From a virus: a stretch of DNA of 64,000 nucleotides. The stretch spans positions 1 to 64,000 of IMG/VR virus record IMGVR_UViG_3300019752_000004. One strand, given 5' to 3'. This document shows, piece after piece, positions 4,001 to 54,136 of this stretch (position 1 is the first letter of the stretch; each line of letters starts with the position of its first letter). The notes beneath the pieces are model-generated. The model was not told where the DNA came from. It was given only the letters and a program-made list of their open reading frames with translations, and did not search any database. The position numbers were made by a program, and so were the translations under genes.

Positions 4001-4124
4001 GGAGAAGCTTACAAGAGTCGTAGGGTTTTTCACACCAGTTAGTGGATGGAATAAGACCAGAAGAGAACTTGATTTTCCATTTAGAACCAAAGTTGATTTT
4101 AATGATCGACCAGTAATTGAATAA
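1029..4124 (+). CDS. nrdD: Anaerobic ribonucleoside-triphosphate reductase (NrdD) with intein
   Basis: Class III ribonucleotide reductase, making dNTPs anaerobically. The 1031-aa precursor carries a 335-aa intein at residues 387-721; the spliced enzyme would be 696 aa. The glycyl-radical motif RVVGFF is near the C-terminus. The zinc site is visible as VCENGHHY plus VCPECGG; one of the usual four cysteines appears replaced, possibly by His. The start is TTG with AGGA upstream. The intein sits between two adjacent cysteines of a conserved SCC-R motif (C386 and the Cys at nt 3192). An operon with nrdG. Confidence 0.93.
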   Translation: MNLTELKDTFSPEANTNFTRQQIRKSLKLNLQRKFKNKSKTEIIACVDELMTINGLSEDKFNCLDFVQKMIDSNINDLSIDDNSNKTEKTIAGIYAESNAANKKIVGYDFLYRVMKGMYGKIRAKRLVGEMIDHSLGLSDSSNILIPYCYALDATKLITEGRPFGTLHSKPAKRVDSYISALNETIHQMSSHLAGAIAIGTFFFDISHLLIRTGVSLDEIKTNEKTRKRLQNDMQKFIHSVNHLSRNSNESPFTNVNIFDRFKLKYIVENELKWLFPDPSGIERPDYNDMVVDFILETQDIFLDLFDAGDPCKAGLPYRFPVCTMNISKSYVKLDEKWNPILDKDGEEIPCDPYIVDTEFLKKFVNERDVLRYNIFASDGTKVCSCCFDENQKVLVEGSGYGPKLITIREANELTNVECPNKRIYQNGIWSEFKRAVVRHNQEYIKVTTVNNKEVVMTGDHLLPCLDGTKPADKINCDDYIRFSTAVYEGKYDNGYGLGVLVGAYAGDGSQGIKDDGGNPKQLVLSLNSDKVEKLKPYLVAFDISAAQNNTIRATTKDKKIIDFIMNRVIGKKSYNKSFALDNIINDSFMFRRGVIDGFYMTDGGNTNRIYTTSDDLRDGLEAIFATCGMQTIINTSDRTDEKVVIRGEEYNRNYPLHCIRWYSTSNKTSVKDIYKKRGNDIFFKVKSVEYVSGSENAYCVQIKGDREPFFTLANGIDTHNCRMVNDSDMLEVAESVNAFGAGALSSLGSHRVCTINYHRLVLESDNINDFWKNYKYRIEASKDILVAHKKLIMLLADAGLQSFVSNYWINMKRMFSTFGVLGIYEMQKTAEKKYGKENIGEDFTGEVLSFLENKVHTFTKTIDDHRFNIEQIPAESYAVRLCNADKVLFGDENVPYNLYANQFVPLHADATIWEKLDADGKYNKLLSGGGIVHATVGERPTSAQILEIIYYAVDVGCEHFAINGIYGVCENGHHYLGDTDVCPECGGMTVEKLTRVVGFFTPVSGWNKTRRELDFPFRTKVDFNDRPVIE
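2187..3191 (+). mobile_element. Intein with LAGLIDADG homing endonuclease in NrdD
   Basis: The N-terminal splice residue is Cys387, beginning CFDENQKVLVE (block A). Block B is TGDHLLP, and the C-terminal block ends FTLANGIDTHN directly before a Cys (+1). All splicing residues are present: Cys1, block B His, penultimate His, terminal Asn, +1 Cys. Two dodecapeptide endonuclease motifs are seen, LGVLVGAYAGDGS (precursor residues 498-510) and RGVIDGFYMTDGG (about 593-605), so it looks like a full-size homing intein. Residue -3 (C384) and residue -1 (C386) are also cysteines. Confidence 0.93.
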
Positions 4125-4139
4125 AATTAAAAATAGTTG

Positions 4140-4200
4140 TTGACTATTGAATCTAAGGTGTGTATTCCTGTATTTGTGAGCAGGTGATACACACCTTTTT
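4140..4200 (+). promoter_or_regulatory. Promoter embedded in stem-loop (PeSL-like), copy 1
   Basis: The -35 TTGACT (4140-4145) and -10 TATTCC (4163-4168) are separated by 17 bp. The end of the spacer and the -10 form the left arm AAGGTGTGTAT (4155-4165) of a hairpin whose right arm ATACACACCTT (4187-4197) is followed by a T-run. The loop holds an inner CCTG/CAGG pair. One of five near-identical copies (others at 19345, 23935, 35446, 44878). The same DNA can end nrdD transcription and start that of the next gene. Confidence 0.8.
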
Positions 4201-4226
4201 CAATTTTAAATGTAGGAGAATATGCA

Positions 4227-21921: not shown

Positions 21922-23925
21922 ATGACTGTACGGGAAAAATTAGAATATCAGAAAAAGATTAGACTCGCATTAGCTGATATACCAGATGCACCGATTAGAG
22001 TTAAAATGAACCTTCTGAAATCGCTTAGACAGTGGTTTCAGAAGCTAAAGGTTAAAACAGAAGCACCTGAACCAGAAAAACAATTGATGACTCAGGCGGA
22101 TATCAATATCCGCCGTAAACGTAGAGAATATGTAGATGTTGGCGAAAAAATTGGTGGTGCTAAGAAAGATTTATGGTCAACTAAATCAGATAGAGGTTTA
22201 GATGTATCTGATTATGAAAATATGGATTCTGGCGCAGCACATAAACTGGTCACTAAGACAAACGTGTTTAAAGGTGTACTTGATGAGTTCATTGATGAAA
22301 ATGGCATGGATGCACAATCCGCATTCGTTTTCAACAAAGTTATGGGTTCGATACAAACAAAACCGAATGACAGCGATCAGGATAGAAAGAATTATGTAAT
22401 TGCATGTGATAAACTAAAAGAATATTTCCGTGGTGCAACCAATATAGATGAATTTTATGAAGTGTATAAACAGATTCGTATGGAGGTACGAGGATATCAT
22501 TTGACTGCTGATGAACTTCCATATAAAGAATTTATGGATAAATGGCGTAAAGAATATTTTGATGCAGTTGATAAATTAACAAAAGAAAATGAAAAAGGAG
22601 GTATGACATACTATAGTGCTTCGGGGGATGCTAGAAGAAAAGCAATGGAAAAATATAAAAATGACCCAAAATATATAGAAGCTAAAAAGATTCTTGATGA
22701 TGCCTATGATAGAGAAGTTAATGATCCAAATTCAGTCGCCAATCAGTATCAATCTCTTGGAAAAAGATTTAATAATCTTATACTGGGTCGATCAAATGCG
22801 TTTAATAAAAATTTTGAGGCATCACAGTATTTGGAAAAGGATGATTTTTCATGGCGTGAAAAGAAAAAACGTAGTGCAGATTCAAAGAAAAATAAAGAAA
22901 AATGGAAACGAATCGTACCAGAATCCGTAGAACGTTCTGGTGGACGCAATTTTGATTTTAAACCAGATGATATTTTGAATGAATTTAAAATTAGAGGTCT
23001 GGAATACGGAAACTACGTTGACGAAGAGAGTGCTAAACACCACACTCAGATGATGGGGTTAGGGTTTGTTGATATGGCGGATGCACTTGATATACCATTT
23101 GAACAGATTTCATATGGCGGAAAACTTGGCATGGCTATCGGTGCACGTGGTTCTGGAAATGCACTTGCTCATTATGAACCTGCTAAGAAAGTTATTAATA
23201 TGACTAAACTCAAAGGTGGTGGCAGTCTAGCTCACGAATGGGGACATTATCTAGACAATATGATAACAAACGTTCTGACTGATGGTGAAAATTCATTTTC
23301 ATTCATGACTCAAAGTGACGTTGATGGTATAGCAGCTAGTAGTAAAAAAACTGGTGCAAAGGAGATAGCATCAATTTATAAACGCATCCTTAAAAATATG
23401 AAAAGTGGTGACAAAGGTAGAAAATCATCTTCTGTATCAGCAGATGACGGAACTAGAACATATAGATGGCCTTTCTACGGTGAACCAGATGAAATTCAAG
23501 ACGCACAGGCTCTGATGGACAGGGTTGCGGGGCAAACTAAAAGACGTGGAAATAAAAGAGTACCAGCATTTAAAGATGCAGTTTTACAACGTGCAGCAGA
23601 CTATATTGAACATAAAACAGGTCAAACTGTTTACTGGGGTGAAGGTAAATCACAATTTCAGATTGATTCAGAAAATGCTGGCACGGGGAAGAAGAGTAAG
23701 TACTGGACTTCCGATGTTGAGATGTTCGCACGTATGTTTGAAGCTGTGATTCAAAATAAACTCACAAAAAAGGGAATTAAAAACACATATCTAGTGACAG
23801 ATGTTAAAAGAATCCAAGGACCTTATCCACGGGGCGAAGAACTTGAATATCTTGAAACAGAAGTTGATAATCTGTTTGCAGTTCTAAAAAGAAACAATCT
23901 TTTAGAACAATTTTCAAAATATTAA
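21922..23925 (+). CDS. Polyvalent protein with LPD1-like HExxH metallopeptidase domain
   Basis: A 667-aa protein. Residues about 345-450 match the LPD1 domain of large polyvalent proteins: FKIRGLEYGNYV, ADALDIPFEQ, GKLGMAIGARGSG, ALAHYEPAKKVINMTK and GGGSLAHEWGHYLDNM, with the zinc motif HEWGH at residues 438-442. The N-terminal region is charged and helical. Polyvalent proteins are thought to be co-injected with DNA and to counter host defences. Starts 1 nt after the preceding gene in the same late unit. Confidence 0.82.
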   Translation: MTVREKLEYQKKIRLALADIPDAPIRVKMNLLKSLRQWFQKLKVKTEAPEPEKQLMTQADINIRRKRREYVDVGEKIGGAKKDLWSTKSDRGLDVSDYENMDSGAAHKLVTKTNVFKGVLDEFIDENGMDAQSAFVFNKVMGSIQTKPNDSDQDRKNYVIACDKLKEYFRGATNIDEFYEVYKQIRMEVRGYHLTADELPYKEFMDKWRKEYFDAVDKLTKENEKGGMTYYSASGDARRKAMEKYKNDPKYIEAKKILDDAYDREVNDPNSVANQYQSLGKRFNNLILGRSNAFNKNFEASQYLEKDDFSWREKKKRSADSKKNKEKWKRIVPESVERSGGRNFDFKPDDILNEFKIRGLEYGNYVDEESAKHHTQMMGLGFVDMADALDIPFEQISYGGKLGMAIGARGSGNALAHYEPAKKVINMTKLKGGGSLAHEWGHYLDNMITNVLTDGENSFSFMTQSDVDGIAASSKKTGAKEIASIYKRILKNMKSGDKGRKSSSVSADDGTRTYRWPFYGEPDEIQDAQALMDRVAGQTKRRGNKRVPAFKDAVLQRAADYIEHKTGQTVYWGEGKSQFQIDSENAGTGKKSKYWTSDVEMFARMFEAVIQNKLTKKGIKNTYLVTDVKRIQGPYPRGEELEYLETEVDNLFAVLKRNNLLEQFSKY

Positions 23926-23934
23926 TAAAAGTTG

Positions 23935-23996
23935 TTGACAACTAAAACTAAGGTGTGTATTCCTGTATTTGTGAGCAGGTGATACACACCTTTTTT
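23935..23996 (+). promoter_or_regulatory. Promoter embedded in stem-loop (PeSL-like), copy 3
   Basis: TTGACA (23935-23940), 17-bp spacer, TATTCC (23958-23963). Stem AAGGTGTGTAT (23950-23960) and ATACACACCTT (23982-23992) with a T-run. Sequence identical to copy 4 except for two positions in the hairpin. It closes the late polyvalent unit and opens the early one. Confidence 0.82.
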
Positions 23997-24018
23997 AATT
24001 TTTAAAATGGAGAACACA

Positions 24019-24710: not shown

Positions 24711-25187
24711 ATGATTGAAATTTATACCGATGGTAGTGGGAACAACACCACAGACAGAAGAGGCGGTTGGGCATACGTAATCTTACATGAACATCATAAA
24801 TTCATTAGATATGGTCATATACCACCACCAACAACTAACAACATTGCTGAGATGATGGCGGCGTTCAACGCTATGAAAGCATGTTCCAAAATTAAGGATA
24901 AGAAGATTAGAATTTATTCTGATTCTAATTATTGTGTACAGGGGTTAAAAACGTGGTCTGATAACTGGATCAAGAATAATTGGATGGGTTCAAACGGTCC
25001 TGTTAAAAACTGTGGACTTTGGAAACAGATGAAACCACTGTATGACTCATTTGATGATCTAGAAATATTTCATGTGAAAGGTCATGCTGGTAACAAGTAC
25101 AATGAACTTGCAGATGAGTACGCTGGCAATGGCACGAACGAAAAAATTGTAGAATCCCATGCAGGGTATGATGTGGCATACATATGA
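24711..25187 (+). CDS. Ribonuclease HI
   Basis: A 158-aa RNase HI. Catalytic DEDD is visible: IYTDGSG, NNIAEMMAA, IYSDSNYCV and NELADEYA, with the KGHAGN loop. It removes RNA primers at Okazaki fragments; T4 uses an unrelated FEN-type Rnh. Start ATG 24711 with AAGGAG; overlaps the gp55 gene by 4 nt. Confidence 0.95.
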   Translation: MIEIYTDGSGNNTTDRRGGWAYVILHEHHKFIRYGHIPPPTTNNIAEMMAAFNAMKACSKIKDKKIRIYSDSNYCVQGLKTWSDNWIKNNWMGSNGPVKNCGLWKQMKPLYDSFDDLEIFHVKGHAGNKYNELADEYAGNGTNEKIVESHAGYDVAYI

Positions 25188-25822
25188 AAATAGACAAATC
25201 CAAGATATCTAAATTAAACTTCGAAAAGAAAAAGAGAGTTGCGCAACCCCAACCAAAATTGAATCAGTATGTTGATAATGCACTGTTGTCATCAGAGCTT
25301 GAAAAATGGTTGGACGATAGGAAAAAATGTATTGAAAATGGGGATGACACACCACAGATGCCTGAATATGTAGGCAAGTGTATCATCCAGATTGCAAACA
25401 ACCTGAGCAAGAAAGGCAATTTCCGAGGATATACATATGCTGATGAAATGGTGAGTGACGGAATCCTGACTGTATGTAAATACATTCACAATTTTGATCC
25501 TCATGCCGTAACTAAATCTGGCAAAGCAAATGCATTTTCATACATCACAATGATTCTGTACAATGCATTTAAACAGCGCATCAACACTGAAAAGCGTCAA
25601 AATTATAACAAACAAAAGGCATTCCAGATGTGTGGTGGATTTTCTTCTATTGACGGGGAAGATTATTCTGTGGTAACACAACAATTAGAGTGTGCAGGTG
25701 TTGGTAAAGATTATCTTGATAGTATTAATGCATATGAAGAAGCACATAGACTTAAAAGAGAATCAAAACGTGTAAAGGTTGAAAAAAACTCTAAAGTAGG
25801 ATTGTTCAAGGATTTAAAATGA
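25184..25822 (+). CDS. 55: Late-transcription sigma factor (gp55-like)
   Basis: A 212-aa protein (T4 gp55: 185). NFRGYTYADEMVSDGIL and FSYITMILYNAFKQRI are sigma region 2-like segments that closely follow gp55; region 4 is absent as in T4. It directs RNA polymerase to TATAAATA-type late promoters, several of which are visible here. Coupled to RNase H by an ATGA overlap and to the next gene by 4 nt. Confidence 0.92.
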   Translation: MKIDKSKISKLNFEKKKRVAQPQPKLNQYVDNALLSSELEKWLDDRKKCIENGDDTPQMPEYVGKCIIQIANNLSKKGNFRGYTYADEMVSDGILTVCKYIHNFDPHAVTKSGKANAFSYITMILYNAFKQRINTEKRQNYNKQKAFQMCGGFSSIDGEDYSVVTQQLECAGVGKDYLDSINAYEEAHRLKRESKRVKVEKNSKVGLFKDLK

Positions 25823-35079: not shown

Positions 35080-35442
35080 ATGGAAATGTTTGAAAGATGC
35101 GTAAGAGAGAAAGTTAGATTCAATTACAATGGTGTTATCACGACAGAAGATTTGTGGGATTTACATACACTTACACTGGATGTAATCTATTCTGAAATTC
35201 AGTTGAAAATTGAAAGACTTCCAAAAACCAGCCTCATTAAAGGTGGGGTTAGTAAGGAACGTGAAAAACTTGAATTTAAAGCCTCTGTGGTCGCATATGT
35301 TTATAAGGTAAAGACAGAGGAAGAAAAAGAACGTGAACGTGTGGAAATCAATTCACAGCGTAGACAGAAGATTCTTAAACAGATCGAAGAACAGGAATTT
35401 AAAAACCTGTCTATTGATGAATTGAAAGAAATGTTGAAATAG
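35080..35442 (+). CDS. Hypothetical 120-aa protein, partner of the 687-aa gene
   Basis: AGGAG site; begins MEMFERCVREKVRFNYNG. The first 75 residues look globular; the last 40 are a charged helix (TEEEKERERVEINSQRRQK). Ends at PeSL-like copy 4, so it closes the unit with the 687-aa protein. Confidence 0.65.
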   Translation: MEMFERCVREKVRFNYNGVITTEDLWDLHTLTLDVIYSEIQLKIERLPKTSLIKGGVSKEREKLEFKASVVAYVYKVKTEEEKERERVEINSQRRQKILKQIEEQEFKNLSIDELKEMLK

Positions 35443-35445
35443 TTG

Positions 35446-35506
35446 TTGACAACTAAAACTAAGGTGTGTATTCCTGTATTTGTGAACAGGTGATGCACAC
35501 CTTTTT
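35446..35506 (+). promoter_or_regulatory. Promoter embedded in stem-loop (PeSL-like), copy 4
   Basis: TTGACA (35446-35451), 17-bp spacer, TATTCC (35469-35474). Stem AAGGTGTGTAT (35461-35471) with ATGCACACCTT (35493-35503; one G-T pair) and a T-run. The downstream TTTTTAAAATGGAGAA leader is shared with copy 3. Confidence 0.82.
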
Positions 35507-35530
35507 AATTTTTAAAATGGAGAATATGCA

Positions 35531-44851: not shown

Positions 44852-44877
44852 ATTTAGAAATTAATTCATAAAAGTTG

Positions 44878-44938
44878 TTGACAACGTTTTTAAAGGTGTG
44901 TATTCCTGTATTTGTGAGCAGGTGATACACACCTTTTA
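44878..44938 (+). promoter_or_regulatory. Promoter embedded in stem-loop (PeSL-like), copy 5
   Basis: TTGACA (44878-44883), 17-bp spacer, TATTCC (44901-44906). Stem AAGGTGTGTAT (44893-44903) with ATACACACCTT (44925-44935) and TTT. Ends the gp32 transcript and starts the next gene. Confidence 0.82.
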
Positions 44939-44960
44939 CTTTAACAAAATGGAGAACATT

Positions 44961-45431: not shown

Positions 45432-45926
45432 ATGAGTAGAAAATATAAACAGGGTGTTTTTGTACCTAAGAACCCACAAAAATATAAAGGCAATGTTAAT
45501 AACATCATATATCGTAGTTCATGGGAACAGATAGCTTTTAGATTCTGCGACCAGACTACAGATGTTATATGGTGGCAAAGTGAAGAAACTGTAATCGAAT
45601 ATATTTCACCAGTTGATAATAATTCTCACAGATATTATATGGATATCACTATGTGTGTAAGACAAGCATCTGGTAAAGAACAGGTGTTCATGGTCGAAAT
45701 CAAACCTAAAGAACAGACTGTATTTCCTCAGAGGAAACGGAAAAAAGAGTTGACATTTCTAAAAGAAGTTGAAACATATAGTATTAACGCAGCAAAATGG
45801 AATGCAGCTAAAAAGGTTTGTGAACGACATGGATATAAATTTTTAATCTGGACACAGGATCATCTATTGCCTAAAAAGCCAGCTAGATTAAAAAGATTTA
45901 AAAAACCTGTTGACAAACGAAAATGA
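45432..45926 (+). CDS. 4: Head completion protein (gp4-like)
   Basis: A 164-aa protein (T4: 150). MSRKYKQGVFVPKNPQKYKG is the expected start; IIYRSSWE, YYMDITMCV and FMVEIKPK fit a PD-(D/E)xK nuclease core. gp4 trims or completes the DNA-filled head before tail joining. Late promoter directly upstream. The early promoter of the next unit overlaps its last codons. Confidence 0.93.
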   Translation: MSRKYKQGVFVPKNPQKYKGNVNNIIYRSSWEQIAFRFCDQTTDVIWWQSEETVIEYISPVDNNSHRYYMDITMCVRQASGKEQVFMVEIKPKEQTVFPQRKRKKELTFLKEVETYSINAAKWNAAKKVCERHGYKFLIWTQDHLLPKKPARLKRFKKPVDKRK

Positions 45927-45938
45927 GTTGAATATAAC
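45910..45938 (+). promoter_or_regulatory. Early promoter with conserved leader (family B), copy 1
   Basis: TTGACA (45910-45915), 17-bp spacer, TATAAC (45933-45938). The downstream leader (ATTCATGGAAGGCAAAGAT, then AACTTAACAAAATGGAG) is shared with copies at 49980, 50347 and 52256. The -35 lies inside gp4. Drives the small genes 45989-47537. Confidence 0.85.
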
Positions 45939-45988
45939 TGGATTCATGGAAGGCAAAGATTTATAAACTTAACAAAATGGAGTTCGTG

Positions 45989-46192
45989 ATGGAAAAGGCA
46001 TTTATTATTGTACGTGTGGTTGACAATCTCAGATGGAATGAAACAACAAAATACAACCAGTGTGTTATGTTGGATGAAGAACTTGCCAATAAAAAGTGTG
46101 ATGAACTGAATACAGAAGCACGGGTGCATAATGCTGGCAATGGTCATGTTAAAAACAGTTACCGTGTAGAAATCGTTAACGTGGAGAAATAA
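45989..46192 (+). CDS. Hypothetical 67-aa protein
   Basis: ATG 45989 with GGAG upstream (ATGGAGTTCGTG leader). MEKAFIIVRVVDNLRWNETT: beta-alpha, basic/acidic mixed, ends with VNVEK directly before the next gene. First gene under early promoter B copy 1. Confidence 0.65.
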   Translation: MEKAFIIVRVVDNLRWNETTKYNQCVMLDEELANKKCDELNTEARVHNAGNGHVKNSYRVEIVNVEK

Positions 46193-49530: not shown

Positions 49531-49959
49531 ATGAATGAAATTGAACGTGTGAAGACATAATTAAGAAATCTTGATCCAGATAATTATGTTGGCAAGCATA
49601 TTACATGCACTGCACCTGAATATGATGGATATCCAGAATTTAAATGTCCATGTGTAGTAACTGGATTTGATTATGATATTGGTATCAGCATTCAAGCAAG
49701 TGAAGATTGTAGCAATGAATATGAATATACATCTGCTTATAAAAATGAATATATTCTTTGTCTTAATGGTCCATCGTCACCAGTAGTGAAGAAAATTAGT
49801 GTTGAAAATAGAATGGGTGAAGATGTATATACCAACATGTTTAAATACCTTGTCAATGCAATAGATATCGGTGATGTTAATTATGATGATCTTGAAGAAT
49901 CTAAAGGTTCTTATATTGCAGGACATCCTACATCGGATACATGTGCATTTGCTCAATAA
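49531..49959 (+). pseudogene. Gene with in-frame TAA at codon 10
   Basis: ATG 49531 with GGAG in the shared ATGGAGAACAAA leader reads M-N-E-I-E-R-V-K-T-stop; the same frame is then open for 132 further codons (LRNLDPDNYVGKHITCTAPE ... DTCAFAQ) to TAA at 49957. The continuation is clearly protein-like (CPC, YDGYPEF). A single C-to-T change (CAA to TAA) explains it. Could be a nonsense allele, a suppressed stop or a sequence error. No other start with a good ribosome site is seen. Confidence 0.72.
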
Positions 49960-49979
49960 TAAAAAATTTAAAAAACTTG

Positions 49980-50061
49980 TTGACAAGTGAATGAGGTCTG
50001 CATATAACTAGACTCATGGAAGGGAGAATTCCTTAATAACTTAACAAAATGGAGAAAGAAA
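49980..50061 (+). promoter_or_regulatory. Early promoter with conserved leader (family B), copy 2
   Basis: TTGACA (49980-49985), 17-bp spacer, TATAAC (50003-50008), followed by ACTAGACTCATGGAAGG and AACTTAACAAAATGGAG. The leader contains an AAGG/CCTT pair (interrupted here). Same module as 50347 and 52256. Confidence 0.88.
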
Positions 50062-50253
50062 ATGAATGTTCATGAAATGCGTATCATCCTCAATAAGATT
50101 TACAACGGAAATGTGTTATATGAATCTGATGACACAGACACTCTATTTCATGAAGGTCTGATTACTACAACTAAAGTTAATTGTTGCGGAGAGGTTCATC
50201 CGTTAATAATCCTAACCCCACTCGGTGAACGTGTGAGAAGTAATTTTAAATAG
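50062..50253 (+). CDS. Cassette ORF 1, 63-aa hypothetical
   Basis: MNVHEMRIILNKIYNGNVLY; contains CC and ends TPLGERVRSNFK, somewhat like a small winged-helix end. Flanked by promoter module B and terminator/late-promoter module C. The first five codons (M-x-V-H-E) are shared with cassette ORF 2. Confidence 0.65.
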   Translation: MNVHEMRIILNKIYNGNVLYESDDTDTLFHEGLITTTKVNCCGEVHPLIILTPLGERVRSNFK

Positions 50254-50280
50254 TTTGTCACCACACCATACATAAATTTT

Positions 50281-50333
50281 ACCCCTAGTAGAAACATTAA
50301 TTCTACTAGGGGTTTCTTGTTTCTGATAAATAC
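50281..50333 (+). terminator. Repeated terminator plus late promoter (module C), copy 1
   Basis: ACCCCTAGTAGAA (50281-50293) pairs with TTCTACTAGGGGT (50301-50313), followed by TTCTTGTTT and the late-type box GATAAATA (50325-50332). Near-identical copies at 50647 and 52882. Here it is followed not by a late gene but by a second early promoter at 50347. Confidence 0.85.
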
Positions 50334-50346
50334 TTTTAAAAACTTG

Positions 50347-50426
50347 TTGACAAGTGAATATGGTCTGTATATAACTAGACTCATGGAAGGCAAATCCTTA
50401 ATAACTTAACAAAATGGAGATACAAA
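50347..50426 (+). promoter_or_regulatory. Early promoter with conserved leader (family B), copy 3
   Basis: TTGACA (50347-50352), 17-bp spacer, TATAAC (50370-50375), then the conserved leader CTAGACTCATGGAAGGCAAA and AACTTAACAAAATGGAG. It starts 14 nt after the late box of module C copy 1. Confidence 0.88.
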
Positions 50427-50618
50427 ATGACTGTTCATGAAATCCAAAATCAATTAGCACCGTATAGACTATATTGGGATTCTAATGACGATTGTGTATA
50501 TAATGAAGATGATGTCTTCTTTGAATATGTACCTTACAACGATATGGTGGGTTTTATTTCTAGATGTATAACCGGAGAAGCATTTTCTGCACAGAAAATT
50601 ATTACAGCTGGCGAATAA
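50427..50618 (+). CDS. Cassette ORF 2, 63-aa hypothetical
   Basis: MTVHEIQNQLAPYRLYWDSN; acidic and aromatic-rich (YNEDDVFFEYVPYNDMV). Unrelated to cassette ORF 1 after the first five codons. Same flanking modules B and C. Confidence 0.65.
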   Translation: MTVHEIQNQLAPYRLYWDSNDDCVYNEDDVFFEYVPYNDMVGFISRCITGEAFSAQKIITAGE

Positions 50619-50646
50619 GACAACCAATTAAACAAACCAAAATTTT

Positions 50647-50699
50647 ACCCCTAGTAGAAACCTTCATTCTACTAGGGGTTTCTTGTTTCTGATAAATAC
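50647..50699 (+). terminator. Repeated terminator plus late promoter (module C), copy 2
   Basis: ACCCCTAGTAGAA (50647-50659) with TTCTACTAGGGGT (50667-50679), TTCTTGTTT, then GATAAATA (50691-50698), 21 nt upstream of the tail-tube gene at 50719, which it would drive late. Confidence 0.85.
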
Positions 50700-50718
50700 T
50701 TTTAAAAGAGATATTTTT

Positions 50719-51678
50719 ATGAGATTTGCAACAAGAACAAGAAATATAATTAACCGTATCAACGGCAGAAAACCAGATTCAACCACTACAGGAACATATG
50801 ATCCAACGACTTTAAAACAGTTGGTATTCCCCCGTGACGTTCTAACACTCACAGAGGGTAATGGTCATTACATCCTTTTTAACATCAACACTGTTGTTGG
50901 TTCTAGATTTAGTTCCCGTGCAACCCGTGTAGTAGAAAACACTGTTAACAATCCATTCGGTGATGAACCAGTTGTACAGCAATCAGGGAGTTCTAGTCTT
51001 AGAACATTGACACGAAATCATGTTCGTAGTGATGAAAGTATAGTCATGTTCATGCCACCTAACCTAAGTACAGCATATAATGTTGACTGGTCTGCAACTG
51101 AATTAGGTGTACTTGGATCAGTATTAGCCGATGGTCTTAATTTTGATTCAGTCAACCTAGAGGATGTTAAACGTGTTACAGGTAGACTTGTAAAAGAAAC
51201 TGCATTGAATCTAGCCAGCCTAGTTGGTGTAAATGCAGAGGAATCATATAGATTGTATAGTGCTGAGACAAAGAATCCATTTACAGAAACACTTTTCAAC
51301 GGGATTTCAAACAGGACATTACCTCTGAATTTTAGAATGAATGCACGGTCTGAAAATGAAGCCGAAACCATTAAAGAGATTGTACGTAGATTTAAATTTC
51401 ATGCTGCACCAGAAATTGTAGATGGGGATATCAGGTCATCTTATTTTAAAGCACCATCTACCTTTGATATTACATTCATGAACAAAGACCAGAACAATGT
51501 TTACCTTCACAGAATGTCTACATGTGCGCTATCAGATATTAACGTTAATTATACGCCTAATGGCGAATATAGCACGTTAAAGAATGGTGCACCAACACAG
51601 ATTGAACTTGAACTTAAATTCACAGAGCTTGAAGTTCTCACTAAATCTAAATTTCTTGATCCAGATAACAGTTTCTAG
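50719..51678 (+). CDS. Baseplate tail-tube protein (gp48/gp54-like)
   Basis: A 319-aa protein. Start ATG 50719. LVFPRDVLTLTEGNGHYILF near residue 35 and the C-terminal GAPTQIELELKFTELEVLT are typical of T4 gp48-type tube caps that start tail-tube polymerisation on the hub. A low-complexity Arg/Asn start. Late promoter in module C copy 2. gp53 follows after 9 nt. Assignment between gp48 and gp54 is not certain. Confidence 0.78.
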   Translation: MRFATRTRNIINRINGRKPDSTTTGTYDPTTLKQLVFPRDVLTLTEGNGHYILFNINTVVGSRFSSRATRVVENTVNNPFGDEPVVQQSGSSSLRTLTRNHVRSDESIVMFMPPNLSTAYNVDWSATELGVLGSVLADGLNFDSVNLEDVKRVTGRLVKETALNLASLVGVNAEESYRLYSAETKNPFTETLFNGISNRTLPLNFRMNARSENEAETIKEIVRRFKFHAAPEIVDGDIRSSYFKAPSTFDITFMNKDQNNVYLHRMSTCALSDINVNYTPNGEYSTLKNGAPTQIELELKFTELEVLTKSKFLDPDNSF

Positions 51679-51687
51679 GAGGTTCCA

Positions 51688-52242
51688 ATGTATTTTCAAC
51701 TTTTTCCACACAGATGGTTTACACTCTCAAACGGTGAAACCATATTATACAATAACTTTACACGAGCCGTAGGCGTTACAAATAGTATAGTAGAAGATGA
51801 AACTAATCTGATTAATTATATTATTGCCGATGGTGAACGTGCTGAACAGATTAGTCAACGTGTATATGGATCAACAGAATACTGGTGGATTATATATCAT
51901 GTGAATAGAATTGAGAATCCAGTTGTAGATTGGCCTTATCCAAATTCAATATTAGATGATATTAGATTGGAAGAGTTTCCGAATAGTTCGCCAGTGGATG
52001 TTCATCACTATGAGGATAAGTATGATAATATAGTTGATATAAATCATTTCAGAGCCTTGTATCCTAATTATGATGATGCTCGGATTGTGGCTGAAAATGA
52101 ATTGACTATAGTGACGTTAGATGAATTTTATACTGGTGAAAATGAAGAGAAACGTAATATTAGACTAGTTGATCCACTGTATATAGATGTAATTGCTGGA
52201 CAATTAGAAGCATTATTTTATAGTGCAATAAATCGAAATTAA
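51688..52242 (+). CDS. 53: Baseplate wedge subunit (gp53-like)
   Basis: A 184-aa protein (T4: 196). MYFQLFPHRWFTLSNGETIL, then GERAEQISQRVYGSTEYWWI, the LysM-like segment typical of gp53 (PF11246), and a C-terminal RNIRLVDPLYIDVIAGQLEA. gp53 joins baseplate wedges around the hub. AGGAG site; same late unit as the preceding gene. Confidence 0.92.
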   Translation: MYFQLFPHRWFTLSNGETILYNNFTRAVGVTNSIVEDETNLINYIIADGERAEQISQRVYGSTEYWWIIYHVNRIENPVVDWPYPNSILDDIRLEEFPNSSPVDVHHYEDKYDNIVDINHFRALYPNYDDARIVAENELTIVTLDEFYTGENEEKRNIRLVDPLYIDVIAGQLEALFYSAINRN

Positions 52243-52255
52243 TTTAAAAAACTTG

Positions 52256-52336
52256 TTGACAAGTGAATTAGGTCTGCATATAACTAGACTCATGGAAGGC
52301 AAATCCTTAAAAACTTAACAAAATGGAGAAAGAAAA
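52256..52336 (+). promoter_or_regulatory. Early promoter with conserved leader (family B), copy 4
   Basis: TTGACA (52256-52261), 17-bp spacer, TATAAC (52279-52284), then the conserved leader to AACTTAACAAAATGGAG. Starts 13 nt after the gp53 stop. Confidence 0.88.
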
Positions 52337-52858
52337 ATGACAACTACAGAAACCATAATCAATGTCATTAAGGACCAAATAAGACCAGCTATGGATGTGT
52401 GGGAAGATGATATGTATAACTTTATTAAGGATTTGCAAGAATATTGTACAAAGACTGTATATAATGATTATGAAGATCAGAAAGGTTCCTTCAATTTGAT
52501 GGGGAACTACACCGCAAATGAGAGCAAATCCTATATTATTCATATTCTTAAAGAACGGAATGGATATAAGAAAACCTATGAACGATTCTTTCACAGAAGT
52601 GAAACTGATCTTAAAGATATGATTCATAAAGAAGCTACACATAAGCTTAACAAAATTGATGTTGCCGTAAAAAAGAAACTTAATGGTGTTGACATAGAAA
52701 AGATTGAAATGCTTGGTTTTAATGCTTATTCTGCAAACGGCTTTTGTGATGGTGCTTGGAAAATTAATGATAATAAGGTGTTTTCATTCCGAGGTATTTA
52801 TGCAGGTGGATATAACATACAGTGTCATCATGTAAGAACACTTTACACATACAAGTAA
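52337..52858 (+). CDS. Cassette ORF 3, 173-aa hypothetical
   Basis: MTTTETIINVIKDQIRPAMD; helical and basic, with NGFCDGAWKINDNKVFSFRG near the C-terminus. No family recognised. Flanked by modules B (copy 4) and C (copy 3), lying between the late genes for gp53 and gp27. Confidence 0.65.
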   Translation: MTTTETIINVIKDQIRPAMDVWEDDMYNFIKDLQEYCTKTVYNDYEDQKGSFNLMGNYTANESKSYIIHILKERNGYKKTYERFFHRSETDLKDMIHKEATHKLNKIDVAVKKKLNGVDIEKIEMLGFNAYSANGFCDGAWKINDNKVFSFRGIYAGGYNIQCHHVRTLYTYK

Positions 52859-52881
52859 TAAACTATATAAATTAAAATTTT

Positions 52882-52934
52882 ACCCCTAGTAGAAACCTTC
52901 ATTCTACTAGGGGTTTCTTGTTTCTGATAAATAC
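52882..52934 (+). terminator. Repeated terminator plus late promoter (module C), copy 3
   Basis: ACCCCTAGTAGAA (52882-52894) with TTCTACTAGGGGT (52902-52914), TTCTTGTTT, then GATAAATA (52926-52933), 22 nt before the gp27-like ATG. Confidence 0.85.
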
Positions 52935-52954
52935 TACTAAAAGAGATATATTAT

Positions 52955-54136
52955 ATGGCTACATTAATAGAAGAAGGAAAATATGAATTATTTTCCTGTT
53001 ACATACTCACGCACATGCAGGAACAAATTGATGTGCGAAACCTGATGATAGAATTTGATGTATATGAATCTATGTACAGTGATTCTGTTACAGGTACACT
53101 CATTTTAGGTGACACCCTAAATTTACTTGCTAATGCCCCCATCATCGGTGGTGAAACAGTAGTTTTCCAATTTAGAACCACAGGTAAATTTGAAACCAGA
53201 ACCCATAGATTCATAGTGTATAGCTGCACTAACAGAAACGTAGATAAAAATAAAACCCAGCTGTATAAATTAAAATTATGCACATCAGAAAAGTATGATG
53301 ATTTAAATCAAAGTATTTCACGTGCTATCAATGGTCATTATAGTGATTCTGTAGTTTCTATATTAAATGAAATCAGTGATAAACCTGTTGTATCCGATAA
53401 ATCTACTGGGATACACCAATATATAATTCCATATACCACACCATTTGATGCGATACGTAGATTAACACAGAAATCGATCGACAGTGATAATAATCCATTT
53501 GTTTTCTACGAATCTACTGTTACAGGATATAATATTAGAAGTGTATCGGCATTGTATGAACAGGAAGCAGTTACAACCTACATATTTTCACCATCAAACA
53601 CTCGTCCAGTTGAAGAACGTTATAGGAATATTAAAGAATATGATGTTCAGCAATCCAATAACGTGAATAAATATAATGAGAGATTTGTCAATGGTGGGGT
53701 CATGCAGACATTCGATCTATTTTCAAAAACGTATGTAGAGGATAACATTGTACGGGATAATAGCGTTGTATTAGATAATTCACCTGTGCCAGATGTATAT
53801 AATAAACGTAGGACAAGAACCAAGTTTCAGATAGATGATATGTCTACAGGTAGATTTGATGATTTTCATAAGAACAGTGAGGCTGTAATGCACCGAAACT
53901 ATGCTATGACATGGCTTTTAGCTGGTGATGAAAATCTTGTACTGGGATCAGTAGTTAATTTTGATATTCCATCACTAGAAGAACAGACTGATGTACTAAA
54001 AATAGACCCACTATATAGCGGTAGGTTCCTAGTCAGTGCTATTAAACATACATGGACTAAAGTTGAATATAGCATGAATGTAGAGGTTGTTAAAAATAGT
54101 TTCAATAGGGAAACGGGAATAAACAATGGCAGATAA
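52955..54136 (+). CDS. 27: Baseplate hub protein (gp27-like)
   Basis: A 393-aa protein, same size as T4 gp27 (391). RNLMIEFDVYESMYSDSVTG and LILGDTLNLLANAPIIGGET match the first tube-like domain; later HIS-type IPYTTPFDAIRRLTQKS. gp27 forms the trimeric hub that carries the gp5 spike. Overlaps the tape-measure gene by 11 nt. Confidence 0.92.
   Translation: MATLIEEGKYELFSCYILTHMQEQIDVRNLMIEFDVYESMYSDSVTGTLILGDTLNLLANAPIIGGETVVFQFRTTGKFETRTHRFIVYSCTNRNVDKNKTQLYKLKLCTSEKYDDLNQSISRAINGHYSDSVVSILNEISDKPVVSDKSTGIHQYIIPYTTPFDAIRRLTQKSIDSDNNPFVFYESTVTGYNIRSVSALYEQEAVTTYIFSPSNTRPVEERYRNIKEYDVQQSNNVNKYNERFVNGGVMQTFDLFSKTYVEDNIVRDNSVVLDNSPVPDVYNKRRTRTKFQIDDMSTGRFDDFHKNSEAVMHRNYAMTWLLAGDENLVLGSVVNFDIPSLEEQTDVLKIDPLYSGRFLVSAIKHTWTKVEYSMNVEVVKNSFNRETGINNGR

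Follow-up and report, generated by a model that had tools for sequence, protein, structure and literature searches.

Related promoter-terminator units in phages

The late operons of phages are usually tightly packed and collinear. Two arrangements described in phages come close to the units considered here. First, promoter-early stem-loops (PeSLs) have been reported in RB49, phi1 and other T4-like phages (Arbiol et al., 2010; Comeau et al., 2014; via PMC4503421 and PMC3950731). According to the latter two articles, a PeSL is a stem-loop terminator combined with a strong sigma70-type early promoter; such elements are scattered among small genes without annotated function and have been proposed to drive gene shuffling. 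In the RB49 sequence itself, we find a hairpin, TTGACA-16/17-(T/C)ATAAT 38–54 nt further on, and then a shared leader with a ribosome-binding site. Second, the moron of lambdoid phages is an ORF with its own promoter and terminator, placed between genes that are adjacent in relatives (PMC1524935). For five T4-like phages, the same article reports that late promoters were confined to sites 5′ of orthologs of T4 late genes and that most of the novel ORFs did not have the GC content of morons (PMC1524935).

The window analysed here is a stretch of 64,000 nt, positions 1 to 64,000 of IMG/VR record IMGVR_UViG_3300019752_000004 (82,849 bases), from an uncultivated T4-like myovirus whose tail genes are about 30% identical to their counterparts in Ackermannviridae and Vibrio phages. 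Its late tail cluster carries three small units, each composed of an early-type promoter block (B), one ORF, and a hairpin followed by a late-promoter box (C). The unit is best read as a PeSL- or moron-like early cassette with an added late promoter, derived by copying of the native gp48 border. In it, the promoter-ORF-terminator design by which phages are known to acquire genes would be extended by a late promoter. The features are as follows.

25184–25822, plus strand: gp55-type late sigma factor, expected reader of GATAAATA (phrog_234, 4.5e-49)
45891–45990, plus strand: fourth, diverged B block, 75% identical to B2, overlapping the end of gp4, without C
49966–50061, plus strand: B1, with A-tract, TTGACA-17-TATAAC and a leader containing GGAG
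50062–50253, plus strand: cargo ORF1, 63 aa, no homolog found in phage records
50274–50341, plus strand: C1, stem at 50281–50313, GATAAATA at 50325–50332, B2 immediately after
50333–50426, plus strand: B2, candidate promoter and leader
50427–50618, plus strand: cargo ORF2, 63 aa, no homolog found in phage records
50640–50717, plus strand: C2, stem at 50647–50679, GATAAATA at 50691–50698, then the gp48 leader; likely the native border
50719–51678, plus strand: baseplate tail tube cap (gp48-like), head of the late operon (phrog_230, 5e-65)
51688–52242, plus strand: baseplate wedge gp53 (phrog_232, 6e-34; PF11246)
52242–52336, plus strand: B3, candidate promoter and leader, beginning at the gp53 stop codon
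52337–52858, plus strand: cargo ORF3, 173 aa, its C-terminal part common to early-region proteins of other phages (AGGYNIQCxHxR)
52875–52952, plus strand: C3, stem at 52882–52914, GATAAATA at 52926–52933, then a leader apparently copied from gp48
52955–54136, plus strand: tail/baseplate hub protein, gp27-like (phrog_350, 9e-62)

Compared with PeSLs, the C1-B2 junction keeps the order seen in RB49, with about 34 nt from the hairpin to TTGACA. Among the three units, it is the only place where stem-loop and early promoter stand together as one composite: B1 and B3 are not immediately preceded by a hairpin, and C2 and C3 precede late genes. The units also differ from PeSLs in that a late promoter box separates the hairpin from the early promoter or structural gene behind it, and in that unit 3 lies within a late tail operon, whereas PeSLs are placed in early hyperplastic regions. 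Unit 3 resembles a moron in being an ORF with its own promoter and terminator, as judged by sequence, between genes adjacent in relatives. It differs in its ordinary GC content, in borders that are repeated with different cargo and in the late promoter behind it, and the phage is T4-like rather than lambdoid. In contrast to the five T4-like phages mentioned above, the late box of C1 precedes a novel ORF; the ordinary GC content is shared with them.

Repeated border blocks

An earlier note on this DNA had described three units with the same two borders, and the comparison bears this out. Exact matches to the B core lie at 49980, 50347 and 52256 (chance expectation 0.00), each with a 17-nt spacer between TTGACA and TATAAC and with an upstream A-tract. 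The B blocks, about 95 nt long, are 89, 93 and 91% identical in pairs. Their sequence is that of a strong sigma70-like early promoter such as PeSLs have; B is thus a candidate early promoter. The leader, given as about 60 nt in the note, is present but shorter: TATAAC lies 51–53 nt from the ATG, which leaves about 45 nt from the usual start point. Its RNA structure was discarded as a feature, being no more stable than that of shuffled sequences.

The C blocks (68 nt) consist of a perfect 13-bp terminator stem and GATAAATA, and in pairs they are 97, 94 and 97% identical. As the note had claimed, one such stem stands behind each ORF (chance expectation 0.00), with TGATAAATAC 3′ of it. The folding energy of the stems is −20.8 kcal/mol, with z from −5.6 to −7.1; as in PeSLs, there is a stem-loop with terminator features. 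The tail behind the hairpin, TTTCTTGTTTC, is not a pure T run, which counts against the cassette explanation. The likeness of C2 and C3 extends into the leader of the following gene (AAAAGAGATAT), while C1 instead runs into B2. The late box of C1 leads only into unit 2 and has no obvious late use, which also counts against the cassette explanation. Convergence as the source of these likenesses is ruled out, since the positions of the spacer and the loop are alike too. The motif TTTAAAA at the unit ends was considered as a site of recombination but, with 59 occurrences in the contig, has no weight.

Over the whole 82.8-kb contig, the census of repeats gave four B blocks, three C blocks and no further copies. 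The note's count of three B modules was therefore incomplete: it missed the fourth B, which leads into small early-type ORFs, as well as four composites of a hairpin and TTGACA described below.

The expected reader of the late box is encoded. The phage carries the gp55-type sigma factor and a gp45-type sliding clamp, and ATAAATA stands 16–21 nt before minus-strand ORFs at 40616-, 41508-, 57925- and 73642-, the first two of which are the tail lysozyme and baseplate hub genes. A TATAAATA-like box at a late gene, together with gp55 and gp45, is what characterizes a T4-type late promoter. This makes the GATAAATA of C credible as a late promoter.

Origin of the borders and proposed course of transcription

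Among relatives, ATAAATA precedes gp48 in 39 of 73 cases. Ahead of gp53 it was seen in none of 84, and ahead of gp27 in three of 88, all inside the end of gp53. With the box native to gp48, C2 can most simply be taken for the original head of that operon. C3 matches C2 as far as the leader of the gene behind it, and the simplest view of the gp27 leader is that it was copied from gp48. The pairing of a terminator with a late box is also known elsewhere: a terminator and then GATAAATA precede gp48 in one relative (L090), and a terminator and then TATAAATA precede gene 9 in T4. Both the T4 gene 8/9 junction and L090 resemble C in having a strong hairpin, T/GATAAATA within 6–12 nt, and then the next late gene. 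However, there the pair separates two late genes or heads an operon, whereas the present phage has it three times, always behind an early-type gene.

From these observations, the units are probably cassettes with copied borders, in which the native gp48 border, B and an early gene were duplicated and the cargo was then replaced or diverged. The native terminator and late promoter ahead of gp48 would have been copied together with B and the early gene, one copy arising in tandem (units 1 and 2) and another in the gp53-gp27 junction (unit 3). The non-coding borders would stay alike while the gene between them was replaced or diverged past recognition. As the phage encodes UvsX and a gp32-type single-stranded DNA-binding protein, recombination between copies is a plausible route to such replacement. 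The activity of the signals, the order of copying and replacement by recombination are what we infer from the arrangement.

In such a scheme, host RNA polymerase with the housekeeping sigma factor would start at B soon after infection, transcribe one small gene and halt at the C hairpin, and early transcripts would thereby be kept out of the tail genes. Later, polymerase with the gp55-type sigma factor would start at GATAAATA just past the hairpin, transcribing gp48-gp53 from C2 and gp27 onwards from C3. By the late restart at C3, the gene of unit 3 would leave the tail operon connected to late transcription. The note had likewise read C as ending the early RNA and restarting late transcription. 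The order of the signals and the presence of the late sigma gene agree with this; its view of C as an element made for insertion fares less well, because C looks like a copied native gp48 border and was probably not purpose-built. If the scheme is true, a cassette that stops early and restarts late transcription would explain how early genes can enter late operons harmlessly. A hairpin and late box right behind a promoter-ORF unit would also be a signature by which new early genes could be searched for in T4-like phages.

A more far-reaching version is that the unit is a portable format, in which the added late promoter prevents polar effects, so that early genes can enter any late operon, and the borders act as homology arms for cargo exchange between co-infecting phages. 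We regard this as doubtful.

The cargo ORFs

The three ORFs have the lengths given in the note (63, 63 and 173 aa), and their codon usage is the phage's own (p 0.007, 0.000 and 0.000), which supports real genes. Their GC contents, 0.354, 0.333 and 0.322, are not distinct from that of the contig (0.345), unlike those expected of morons. The pairwise identities are 51, 26 and 29% against shuffled means of 47, 26 and 26%. The linkers between stop codon and C are likewise unrelated among the units, at the shuffled level. The note's statement that the cargo is dissimilar past the first five codons thus holds for the dissimilarity; the shared first codons (M-x-VHE, 17 nt) are common to ORF1 and ORF2 only and absent from ORF3.

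The cargo also bears on a simpler history, in which two rounds of copying of one early gene, promoter and terminator included, were followed by fast divergence of the ORFs under selection while the control regions changed slowly, with no exchange of cargo. ORF1 and ORF2 are equal in length, their units measure 367 and 366 bp, and with the shared N-terminus their similarity is borderline (p 0.026; 51% identity, against a shuffled maximum of 52%); this equal length and weak similarity leave room for plain divergence. However, once the first six residues are removed, the similarity falls to chance level (p 0.14). ORF3 is unlike ORF1 and ORF2 (p 0.95 and 0.105) and belongs to a family of its own in other phages, and the linkers are unrelated though they are non-coding and adjoin conserved sequence. 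Plain duplication is therefore considered unlikely, and copied borders with replaced or diverged cargo remain the preferred reading.

For ORF3, no homolog was found in IMG/VR and no match of note among PDB sequences, and the predicted structure model has a pLDDT of 53. Its C-terminal part matches a protein of Vibrio phage 1.081.O (40%, E 4e-10) and, weakly, proteins of Rhizobium phages and Serratia phage WSPA. By eye, the homologs in WSPA and 1.081.O, both T4-like phages, stand right after a promoter of early type (GTTTACA); the one in WSPA has a hairpin on its 3′ side. Thus, ORF3 is probably an early, singly promoted gene in those phages too. None of the three ORFs has a domain of a mobile endonuclease or intron, and such an origin was set aside. 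A role of the cargo in host takeover, as the note suggested, is a guess. Separately, 49531–49962 shows a strong coding signal with an in-frame TAA at codon 10 (MNEIERVKT*LRN...), which may reflect a broken gene, a sequencing error or a start further down.

Insertion between gp53 and gp27

Intergenic gaps were taken from profile searches of gp4, gp2, gp48, gp53 and gp27 over fetched relatives. The gp53-gp27 gap is 712 bp in the window against a median of about 11 bp over 152 loci, a set that includes the window and counts a few contigs twice; in about 148 relatives the two genes nearly touch. The largest other gaps are 58 bp, 104 bp (L159, a partial alignment) and 1597 bp (L114). Unit 3 is therefore a true insertion, with B3 and C3 exactly on its two edges. 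The note had placed all units between late tail genes: this is right for unit 3, the only one that lies like a moron between genes adjacent in relatives, whereas units 1 and 2 sit between a run of small ORFs and gp48.

Those two units end the gp2-gp48 interval (2481 bp), and the fourth B heads the gp4-gp2 interval (1624 bp); that both intervals are enlarged is judged from one or two comparison genomes, among them cyanophage L016, the sole relative with gp4, gp2, gp48 and gp53 on one strand, in which the four genes touch. Each of three enlarged intervals of the late cluster thus has a B block.

The remaining alternative, ordinary early promoters and late promoters with terminators kept alike by gene conversion, with no unit moving whole, would fit B without C at 45891 and terminators followed by a late promoter without B (position 425 of the window, L090 gp48, T4 gene 9), but it is improbable because in relatives gp27 lacks a separate promoter and here its leader matches that of gp48, so that C3 had to arrive with the insertion or simultaneously with it, and because B3 and C3 are placed exactly at both insertion edges.

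The junction can be entered elsewhere, albeit rarely, as the insertion in L114 indicates: it holds a promoter-like site, TTGACA-17-TATTAT, and unrelated genes, and no strong terminator was found in this gp53-gp27 interval. This independent insertion (L114:5490-7077) encodes a predicted lipoprotein with a metalloprotease-like motif, HExxHxxGLxD, and a second gene of the same sort lies 3′ of gp27.

No match turned up in IMG/VR for exact C patterns, a B pattern or the second repeat family's hairpin; B and C gave only short AT-rich matches by blastn in phage records, and gp53 alone as a query found no relative in IMG/VR. The one match to C among genomes, in an Omnitrophota MAG, was rejected: it is a generic terminator outside any phage context, and the MAG otherwise has nothing notable in common with the contig. 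These collections, which may omit records very near the window, thus yielded no relative that shares B or C.

Other elements at gene borders

In two related phage contigs (L021:137-525 and L022:5070-5458), an iscU-like gene, for an iron-sulphur scaffold, was seen by eye between gp48 and gp53, tightly fused into the late operon and without signals of its own. In Acinetobacter phage nACB2 (L015:3823-3958), a terminator-like hairpin without an ORF lies between the same two genes, possibly a left-over border. In the window, positions 425–510 hold a 15-bp terminator stem followed directly by TATAAATA and the gene for the small subunit of anaerobic nucleotide reductase; this is a C-like element of different sequence. 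Finally, four 88-nt elements (4123–4210, 23918–24005, 35429–35516 and 44861–44948) each stand at the end of one gene, ahead of the next. In them, a TTGAC(A/T) box is followed by a strong hairpin (GGTGTGTAT...ATACACACC, with folding energies of about −24 to −28 kcal/mol) and then by a T run; they look like a promoter/terminator composite peculiar to this phage.
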